The notes beneath the pieces were generated by a model. The model was given only the letters and a program-made list of their open reading frames with translations, was not told the origin of the DNA and ran no database searches. Shown here in pieces: positions 43,101-54,541 of a stretch of DNA of 64,000 bases. Positions within the stretch are counted from its first letter, which is position 1; the number at the start of each line of letters is the position of its first letter. The stretch comes from Clostridiales bacterium Firm_08 (GTDB lineage Bacteria; Bacillota; Clostridia; Oscillospirales; QAKW01), in assembly GCA_001604045.1 (NCBI GenBank), contig LVAN01000007.1:1-64000 (forward strand), in the 5' to 3' direction. A program made the translations under genes and the position numbers.

Positions 43101-43257
43101 TGATGTATCCCCCTTTTATTATCATAATCCTATTATAATAACGTTTTTCATAGAAAACAAGATAAAAAACAAAACTTTACGTTAAAAAAACAGAACAGAG
43201 CGGGCGGGGAGACAGGGAACGGCACTGAGGAGACAGGGGACGGCACTATGTCTTCTA

Positions 43258-43345
43258 AATGATGTTGCGGCAAAGCCGCAAATGATGTCAGGCTCCGCCT
43301 GAATGATGTTGCCTTCGGCAAATGATGTTGCGCTGCGCGCAAATT
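43258..43345. repeat. Array of four small hairpins with AATGATGT spacers
   Basis: Hairpins 43266-43280, 43289-43301, 43310-43320, 43329-43341 preceded each by AATGATGT. Confidence 0.85.
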
Positions 43346-43348
43346 AAG

Positions 43349-43381
43349 GATGATCCCCCGGTCTTTGACCGGGGGATCATC
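43349..43381. terminator. Terminator-like hairpin, distal duplicate
   Basis: GATGATCCCCCGGTC-TTT-GACCGGGGGATCATC. Confidence 0.75.
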
Positions 43382-43382
43382 A

Positions 43383-43751
43383 CAGCGTGTCAAAGAACCT
43401 CTTTGACACGCTGGCAGACTGCAAAAAAGGAAGTTGCATTTCACCGAGCCGTTCTCGTCGGCGTACTTTTCCACCCGAAAAAAGTGAATACTTTTTTCGG
43501 AAAAGGAGATGCAACGTTGCAAAGCGATCGGCTTTTTTCGAAAAAGCCGACGCTCATCAACTTTTGCATCGACGCACGGTAGAGAGCGGATCGGTGGAAA
43601 ACAGAGAAAAGCCTTGCAGAGCAAGGCTTCCTTGGATGAGAACATTTGTTTTTCTCAGTTTTGATTTCAGGCTTTGAACTTTCCCGAAAACGAAACTATT
43701 TAAAACTATGTTTCTGTTTCTCTGTGGTGAAACGACTTTTTTGACAGTCTG
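43383..43751. mobile_element. Hairpin-rich non-coding element family 2, copy 1 (369 bp)
   Basis: Outer hairpin CAGCGTGTCAAAG..CTTTGACACGCTG, TIR-like CAGACTG(C/T)(A/C)AAAAAAG ends, shared with 54243-54507. Confidence 0.75.
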
Positions 43752-43752
43752 G

Positions 43753-43785
43753 GATGATCCCACGGTCTTTGACCGGGGGATCATC
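43753..43785 (-). terminator. Terminator of the RCC1-repeat gene, proximal duplicate
   Basis: GATGATCCCACGGTC-TTT-GACCGGGGGATCATC, 32/33 to 43349-43381. Confidence 0.75.
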
Positions 43786-43800
43786 AGTGTTCAATATTCA

Positions 43801-45426
43801 TTATTTCAGCGACCAGTTGCCGATCAGGCCCTCTTCATAGGACTGCTCTCCGAAAAACATCAGGCTTCCGTCATACTGCAGCGTTATGGTGTAGTTCTGC
43901 CCGGTGATGACGGCGGCGGCGTCCCGCACGTCGTCCAGCGACGTCTGCCCGCGCTGATTGGTGCCGCAGGCGACCAGCGTGCCGTCCTCCCGGACGCCGA
44001 CGGTGAAGTGCCTGCCCGCCGAAACGGCGATGACGTCCGACCACTGCCCGACTTCCAGCGCGCTCATCGTGCGGTCGCCCGCGCCGACGACGGCGCCGTC
44101 CGCCGTAACGCCGACAGCGTGTGTGTTGCCCGCGGCGAACTGTACGACGTTTTGCCACTGTCCGACGCCTTCGGCCAGCCCGTCGTGATCCTTGCCGGCG
44201 AACAGCATCTCGCCGCTTTCCGTCTGTCCCAGCACAAAGTCCCGTCCGACCGCGATGGCCTTGACGTTTTTCCAGCCGGAAACGGCGCACTGACCGCTGG
44301 CGTTATTGCCCGCCGCCACGACGGTCCCGTCCGAACGCAGGCCGACCGTAAAGCCGTTTCCCGCGCCGATGGCGACGATATCCTTCCAGGCGGTAAGATT
44401 GCACTCTCCGAATTTGTTTTTTCCGACCGCCATCACGGTGCCGCTGAAATGCAGGCCGACTGTATGGGTCTCCCCGCAGGCGACCGCGCGGATCGCGTTC
44501 CATTTGGAGGTCAGCAGGACGCCGTCTTTGGCGTATCCCGTGCCCTGCACCTTGCCGGCGGTGTCGACGATCACGGTATGCAGATATCCGGCGGCAACGC
44601 GCGTCTTGCAGGTGAGCAGACGGCGCATCTCCACCACTTTCTCCGGCGCGTCGCGGTAGCCGCCCGCCGCCCGGTATTCCTCCAGGGCGCCGAAAAAGTT
44701 ATCGATGCTTTCCGCGCGGGTGGCAAAATAGTAGTGCCGCGCCGGGCGGAAGAAAAAGAGCGTAAGCGTGAGGATAACGGCGAAAAATACGATGATACCG
44801 CCGCCAAGCCCCGCGTACGCGAGGATCCTGCCGCGTTTTTCCCGGCGTTTCTCGGCGCGGGCGGCGGCCTGTTTTCGCGCGGTCTCCCGCGACGCCTGTT
44901 CTGCCTGTTCCGTTTTAAGACATGTCTCGCCGTCGGCGTGGGCGGTCACCCATTCCTTCGGTCTGTCACAGCCGCCGCAGAAGGTCAGCCCCGCTTCGTT
45001 GATCTGCCCGCAGCCGCACCGCCAGAAGCGGTCGGTGTATTCGGTCCGGTACAGCGGGTCGGTGCCTTTCCACGCTTCAGCATACCGCTCAAACTCCGGC
45101 ATGGACGGTCCCGCCGCCGCGGGCGCCGGCAGATCCTCTCCCGCGGAGAGCGTCTCGTTGCGCCAGGCGACGCCGTCCGAAAACACGACGTTCCGCACCA
45201 CCGGTTCCGCGCCGCTCGGAAACGCCGCGCGGACCTCGGCGCGGGAGGGTATGTCCGTCAGCGTCTGCCGCGTATCGCCCGCGGCAAGTTCCGCGGACGT
45301 CAGATCGCACCAGCTGACATTGCGAAAGATAAAGACCGTTTGCTCCCCCTCGGCCCGGGCGCGCATGAGCTGCAGCGGACAGCCGGGAAGCAGTCGGTAA
45401 AAGACGGTTTCCGTCAAGGAGGGCAC
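43801..45426 (-). CDS. Membrane protein with zinc ribbon (RanBP2-like) and RCC1-like repeats
   Basis: WRCGCGQINEAGLTFCGGCDRPKEW; TM; repeats such as IAVGRDFVLGQTESGEMLFAGKD, VSAGRHFTVGVREDGTLVACGTN. Confidence 0.75.
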   Translation of the reverse strand: MPSLTETVFYRLLPGCPLQLMRARAEGEQTVFIFRNVSWCDLTSAELAAGDTRQTLTDIPSRAEVRAAFPSGAEPVVRNVVFSDGVAWRNETLSAGEDLPAPAAAGPSMPEFERYAEAWKGTDPLYRTEYTDRFWRCGCGQINEAGLTFCGGCDRPKEWVTAHADGETCLKTEQAEQASRETARKQAAARAEKRREKRGRILAYAGLGGGIIVFFAVILTLTLFFFRPARHYYFATRAESIDNFFGALEEYRAAGGYRDAPEKVVEMRRLLTCKTRVAAGYLHTVIVDTAGKVQGTGYAKDGVLLTSKWNAIRAVACGETHTVGLHFSGTVMAVGKNKFGECNLTAWKDIVAIGAGNGFTVGLRSDGTVVAAGNNASGQCAVSGWKNVKAIAVGRDFVLGQTESGEMLFAGKDHDGLAEGVGQWQNVVQFAAGNTHAVGVTADGAVVGAGDRTMSALEVGQWSDVIAVSAGRHFTVGVREDGTLVACGTNQRGQTSLDDVRDAAAVITGQNYTITLQYDGSLMFFGEQSYEEGLIGNWSLK

Positions 45427-54208: not shown

Positions 54209-54242
54209 GAAAACAGCCGACCTTTCAAGGTCGGCTGTTTTT
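54209..54242. terminator. Terminator hairpin, left duplicate
   Basis: GAAAACAGCCGACC-TTTCAA-GGTCGGCTGTTTTT. Confidence 0.85.
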
Positions 54243-54507
54243 CAGCGTGTTAAAGAGGTTCTTTAACACGCTGGCAGACTGCAAAAAAGGAAGTTGCATT
54301 TCACCGAGCCGTTCTCGTCGGCGTACGTGGGTACGGTAGAGAGCGGATCGGTGGAAAACAGAGAAAAGCCTTGCAGGGCAAGGCTTCCTTGAATGAAATC
54401 ATTTGTTTTTTCTGTTGTGATCTTGGACTTTGAACTTTACTGAAAACGAAACTATTTAAAACTATGTTCCTGTTTCTCTGTGGTGAAACGACTTTTTTGA
54501 CAGTCTG
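54243..54507. mobile_element. Hairpin-rich non-coding element family 2, copy 2 (265 bp)
   Basis: Same ends as 43383-43751; lacks the internal segment of about 100 bp. Confidence 0.75.
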
Positions 54508-54541
54508 GAAAACAGCCGACCTTGAAAGGTCGGCTGTTTTT
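54508..54541. terminator. Terminator hairpin, right duplicate with inverted loop
   Basis: GAAAACAGCCGACC-TTGAAA-GGTCGGCTGTTTTT. Confidence 0.85.

Follow-up and report, generated by a model that had tools for sequence, protein, structure and literature searches.

The window analysed here is a stretch of 64,000 nucleotides from the Clostridiales bacterium Firm_08 (contig LVAN01000007.1). It contains two copies of a non-coding element, each lying between two copies of a hairpin, and copy 1 is the neighbour of a minus-strand gene (43801-45426) that encodes RCC1 repeats. The features of the two copies are as follows.

43348-43382, no strand: left hairpin of copy 1 (target-site duplication), delimited by in-register alignment of the flanks
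43383-43751, plus strand: non-coding element, long form, 369 bp (copy 1)
43383-43413, plus strand: 5′ end hairpin of copy 1, CAGCGTGTCAAAGAACCTCTTTGACACGCTG, the end repeat folded back onto its own inverted copy
43414-43430, plus strand: inner left terminal inverted repeat of copy 1, GCAGACTGCAAAAAAGG
43456-43466, plus strand: 5′ half of the core motif of copy 1, CGTCGGCGTAC
43467-43573, plus strand: extra hairpin-rich stretch of 107 bp in copy 1, within the core hairpin's apical loop and confined to the long form
43574-43582, plus strand: 3′ half of the core motif of copy 1, GCACGGTAG
43736-43751, minus strand: right terminal inverted repeat of copy 1, reverse complement CAGACTGTCAAAAAAG
43752-43786, no strand: right hairpin of copy 1; the RCC1-repeat gene has its stop 16 bp away
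54209-54242, no strand: left hairpin of copy 2
54243-54507, plus strand: non-coding element, short form, 265 bp, same family as copy 1 (copy 2)
54243-54273, plus strand: 5′ end hairpin of copy 2
54304-54351, plus strand: core hairpin P1 of copy 2, with a covarying stem of 13 bp and an internal loop and inner stem that are invariant (match to covariance model R1 at E=2.7e-15)
54358-54366, plus strand: 5′ strand of helix P4 of copy 2, ACAGAGAAA
54473-54481, plus strand: 3′ strand of helix P4 of copy 2, TTTCTCTGT
54492-54507, minus strand: right terminal inverted repeat of copy 2
54508-54541, no strand: right hairpin of copy 2, reverse complement of the left hairpin

The apical loop of the internal hairpin has 107 bases in the long form (43467-43573) and only 4 in the short one. 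An earlier note, made from the sequence alone, had placed the stretch 43383-43751 between two copies of a hairpin in the same orientation. This is borne out: read in register, the flanking hairpins of copy 1 are 35-bp direct repeats, identical at 34 of 35 positions. The note had also reported a second insertion with the same layout at 54209-54541, and there another hairpin than that of copy 1 does stand on both sides, as 34-bp repeats (32/34 identical). Here, however, one hairpin is the exact reverse complement of the other (loop TTTCAA vs. TTGAAA), whereas those of copy 1 are direct.

The element is short (265-370 bp in its various forms), multicopy, and devoid of a transposase gene. It is bounded by terminal inverted repeats, CAGCGTGTCAAARAA and an inner CAGACTGNCAAAAAAG facing CAGACTGTCAAAAAAG at the right end. 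About 13 copies are present in the window's genome (size 1.72 Mb, completeness 86%), and those compared with one another have a median pairwise identity of 91.6%; more than 30 are present in the relative G005. Further copies were gathered from relatives and by scanning species genomes for the conserved core. All the core-scan matches inspected came from Clostridia, Oscillospiraceae or other Bacillota records, while comparison with plasmids and phages gave no match. At one locus (L065; G001:C39, about 26.2-26.5 kb), two elements stand in tandem with a single hairpin common to both, as expected if one terminator had been hit twice. At another (L026/L079; G000:C27:31944-31970), a lone intergenic hairpin is near-identical to the 5′ end hairpin of the element, the rest of which is absent.

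The flanks were compared in 120 non-redundant copies from many Clostridia for which both sides were available, with boundaries taken from the element ends only. In 86 of these, the left and right flanks match as one locus-specific hairpin. The median flank-match score of the 120 copies is 23.25, against 5.5 for shuffled left/right pairs; a score of at least 15 is reached by 84 copies but by just 0.13% of the shuffled controls, and no shuffled pair scores as high as 18. The duplication in the 86 copies measures 16-40 bp (median 27); in 59 of them no base separates it from either end of the element. The duplicated sequences are palindromic, with 0.72 of the symmetric positions paired (control, 0.38), and a perfect stem of at least 5 bp adjoins both element ends in 76% of copies, compared with 14% in a one-sided control. 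The element is alike at all loci and the hairpin pair is different at each. Because the duplicated sequence changes from locus to locus, it belongs to the site rather than to the element, as had been proposed from the window alone; the accompanying proposal, that the element targets terminators and duplicates the whole hairpin, is likewise supported by the paired flanks, which shuffling almost never reproduces.

Copies without a flanking duplication, which had been named in advance as an argument against this reading, do occur. In about a quarter of the 120 copies, a different hairpin lies on each side or the flanks are otherwise unmatched. Boundary errors of the script account for some of these. 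For three mismatched copies, the odd hairpin turned up elsewhere in the same genome, where it bounds a different copy at the opposite end (right of L123 and left of L132; right of L177 and left of L137; right of L037/L346 and left of L057/L361), which points to recombination between copies or to chimaeric assembly. As for orientation, an inverted match scores better in 8 of the 79 decidable flank pairs, including copy 2 of the window, although for L240, one of these eight, an asymmetric flank probably accounts for the result. Flipping of the loop as a step of transposition was considered on this account and rejected, since so few pairs are inverted and ordinary hairpin inversion suffices.

In sister species, element-free orthologous genes (L380, L382, and L369) have a single terminator directly after the stop. 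The expectation of sister-species empty sites with one terminator thus holds for the number of hairpins but not for their sequences, which are not conserved, hence these are not strict empty sites. A search for strict ones, in which the joined flanks of the G005 copies were compared with sister species, recovered orthologous genes but no matching intergenic DNA.

A likely gene end lies within 250 bp of every one of the 86 copies with a duplicated hairpin, while for background points 400 bp away the figure is 33-39% per side. Two convergent likely genes enclose 67 of the 86, an approximate share, as the open reading frames are uncurated; where a sole gene flanks the element, it is on the left in 9 cases and on the right in 10. 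When transcription comes from the left, a T-rich stretch (at least 5 T in 7 nt) follows the near hairpin in 16% of copies and the far hairpin in 71%; from the right, the values are 13% and 69%. The U-run goes mostly with the far hairpin, and therefore termination would shift to the far side and the element would become part of the 3′ UTR. At copy 1, the hairpin next to the RCC1 stop lacks a U-run on the strand of that gene. It is the left hairpin that has the U-run beyond it, being followed on the minus strand by the T-rich tail CTTAATTTGC, and only this far hairpin is called for the RCC1 gene by the terminator scan. The right hairpin had been taken for the natural terminator of the gene, a view with which its 16-bp distance from the stop agrees but the lack of a U-run does not. 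Similarly, the host gene was said to be left terminated: a hairpin with a U-run does persist, but usually at the far copy only, with the element drawn into the 3′ UTR.

What moves such an element? When the fetched loci were searched for autonomous copies with the element's ends, a single decayed insertion sequence (IS) of the IS1182 family fitted (L082, in a relative); it has the end repeat of the element itself, CAGACTGTCAAAAAA, at its borders and a hairpin adjoining each end. A search with its transposase across 347 genomes of the order yielded intact relatives in 29. These ISs are about 1.5 kb long, with transposases of about 470-495 amino acids, and their ends, CAGNCTGTCRAAAAA, are those of the element. 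All four transposases scanned match NF033551, the IS1182 model curated at NCBI, at 386-406 bits for a cutoff of 270. Hairpins adjoin both ends in all 17 ISs analysed, the left stem of L303 being imperfect, and in 10 of them the two hairpins are the same (L310, for instance, has ACAGGTCCGGCATTTCAAATGCCGGACCTGT at either end). The other seven (L302, L303, L304, L306, L309, L314, and L322) have two different hairpins at their ends; these being mostly single copies, they are less readily explained by recombination between copies. Beyond the ends, no visible sequence is common to the element and the ISs. A PF13751 search for the mobiliser in G000-G011 found none. Among 18 element carriers searched by transposase alignment, one gave a near-complete match and three gave partial or weak ones, with no IS1182 transposase found in the window's genome or in most of the element-rich relatives. 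The mobiliser is thus deduced from other genomes, because no IS1182 transposase was found in that of the window; it is plausible that the IS was lost after a burst, the copies now being 6-8% apart.

The element is very probably a non-autonomous MITE, moved in trans by a DDE transposase of the IS1182 family, with duplication of the whole target hairpin. In favour are its end sequences, its hairpins as targets, the exactness of the duplication, and intact IS1182-family ISs of the order that behave alike. The interpretation given in the earlier note was largely right, although it named neither the mobilising family nor the conserved fold. The transposase would attack the 5′ feet of a putatively extruded hairpin (cruciform), and repair of the two single-stranded hairpins would leave one complete hairpin on each side of the element. 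A transcript coming from either side would usually meet a first hairpin lacking a U-run, read through the element, and terminate at the far side on a hairpin followed by a U-run; the element would then be a 3′ UTR carrying P1, P4, and the paired end repeats.

Within the element lies a conserved, highly-structured interior. The element's folding is far superior to that of shuffled sequence (z values of -6.4 and -13.0), and the predicted fold consists of the 5′ hairpin followed by a three-way junction between the paired end repeats, core hairpin P1, and helix P4. Pairing in P1 reaches 12.1 of 13 positions within a sequence vs. 7.8 across sequences, and in P4, 9.9 vs. 7.3. In 35 diverse sequences, chosen partly for their pairing, 12 of the 13 P1 pairs show changes on both sides and the covariation score is 0.69, against 0.16 when shuffled and at most 0.13 when slid; a safer figure is the proportion of about 90% standard pairs over 104 unfiltered stems. 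Almost no variation is seen in the internal loop and inner stem (GUCGG-CGUAC / GUACG-GUA). This core module is common to elements with quite different ends (the CAGCGTGTC, CAGTCTGTCGAAAAA, CAGCTTAATGACAAAG, and GGGGCTGT types), and was not found inside the ISs. Neither the window element nor the core-bearing loci gave a gathering-level match in Rfam 15, only weak E-value matches. Among 199 genomes of the order screened with strict filters, 18 have the core; among 399 drawn across the phylum, only the window's own does. A coding core (peptide SSAYVGTVES) was discarded, as the apical loop, whose length ranges from 3 to 5 nt, breaks the frame while compensatory changes keep the stem.

Two other origins for the arrangement have to be weighed. 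The strong conserved RNA-like structure and the restriction of targets to terminators would suit a mobile structured RNA inserted via RNA or reverse transcription. Group IIC introns, like the element, insert beside intrinsic terminators, but unlike it they are retroelements with neither end repeats nor target duplication, and an intron would not be expected to produce a target duplication on insertion. The inverted end repeats, the exact duplication, DDE insertion sequences with identical ends and behaviour, and the failure of Rfam, group II introns included, to match the element make such a route very unlikely. Even less credence goes to tandem terminators that pre-existed, with the element between them and no targeting by transposition. 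The quarter of copies with unmatched flanks could be read in this way, yet the 86 pairs match each other and not the pairs of other loci, the odd hairpins of the three mismatched copies reappear at the opposite end of another copy of the same genome, and element-free orthologous genes have one terminator, not two.

Tentatively, the core may be a new functional RNA present in several families of terminator-targeting mini-transposons with different ends, a self-installed 3′ UTR between terminator hairpin and U-run that would act on the host mRNA or in transposition. It is also possible, though less likely than not, that the core is a DNA-level cruciform bringing the ends together for transposition, and not a functional RNA: covarying helices would stabilise this too, and the sole flanking genes, 9 and 10, are equally frequent left and right. 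The invariant 5-by-3 internal loop and the 5-bp inner stem, however, exceed what pairing needs. G.U outnumbers A.C by 63 to 20 over all distinct stems, which speaks against a purely DNA structure, but the excess falls to 27 to 14 when only diverse stems are counted.

This type of transposition has a known relative in IS1182/IS1272. In staphylococci, IS1272 and TnSha1, of the IS1182 family, target stem-loops, several of them confirmed terminators, recognised by shape and not by sequence (PMC5678879, PMC4923244). They share with the element the transposase family of its presumed mobiliser and the preference for hairpins and terminators, but with them the target hairpin is deleted or replaced, and no duplication results (PMC5678879, PMC4923244). 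Here the hairpin is duplicated whole, the pattern of a hypothetical pathway (b, Fig. 13) with 5′-foot attack on a cruciform; palindromic targets are mentioned there as reported, without detailed data (PMC5678879). MITEPye1 of Paracoccus yeei is likewise non-autonomous with end repeats like those of IS1182-family ISs, but has 4-bp direct repeats and 1-3 copies, and the available part of its description contains no terminator duplication (PMC11578231). The bcr1-bcr3 repeats are also MITE-like and often transcribed in UTRs, but belong to another host group, the Bacillus cereus group, again with no terminator duplication in the portion of the source at hand (PMC3446304). As side observations, six GGGGCTGT-ended elements (L356, L357, L217, L236, L200, and L188) have the same core and no obvious hairpin duplication, and in an IS with ends similar to that type (L081), the hairpin may instead be replaced, as by IS1272.

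The literature searched, outside which most subscription journals lie, holds no report of whole-hairpin duplication or of the conserved core. In catalogues of insertion sequences, the IS1182 family is given palindromic targets and repeats of variable length, and the duplication as such may therefore be known in part. Roughly 90 sites of the element and the ISs now document duplication of a whole stem-loop, previously only drawn as a possibility for IS1182-type transposition. Target duplications are normally short and of fixed length, but here the hairpin sets the length, and recognition of DNA shape by a DDE transposase therefore becomes directly testable. In addition, the element would bring a conserved structured segment, one that Rfam lacks, into the 3′ ends of genes in many gut Clostridia.

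Other repeats were seen along the way. On the reverse strand of L249 (about 3.7-4.1 kb), three core copies lie in a tandem array whose non-coding repeat unit is related yet distinct. Immediately to the left of copy 1, window positions 43251-43345 hold an array of short units made of AATGATGTT and a small variable hairpin (GCGGCAAAGCCGC, CAGGCTCCGCCTG, TGCCTTCGGCA, and GCGCTGCGCGC). Positions 43208-43247 contain a tandem pair of near-identical units, GGAGACAGGGAACGGCACT and GGAGACAGGGGACGGCACT, which we take to resemble the kind found beside REP-type repeats.
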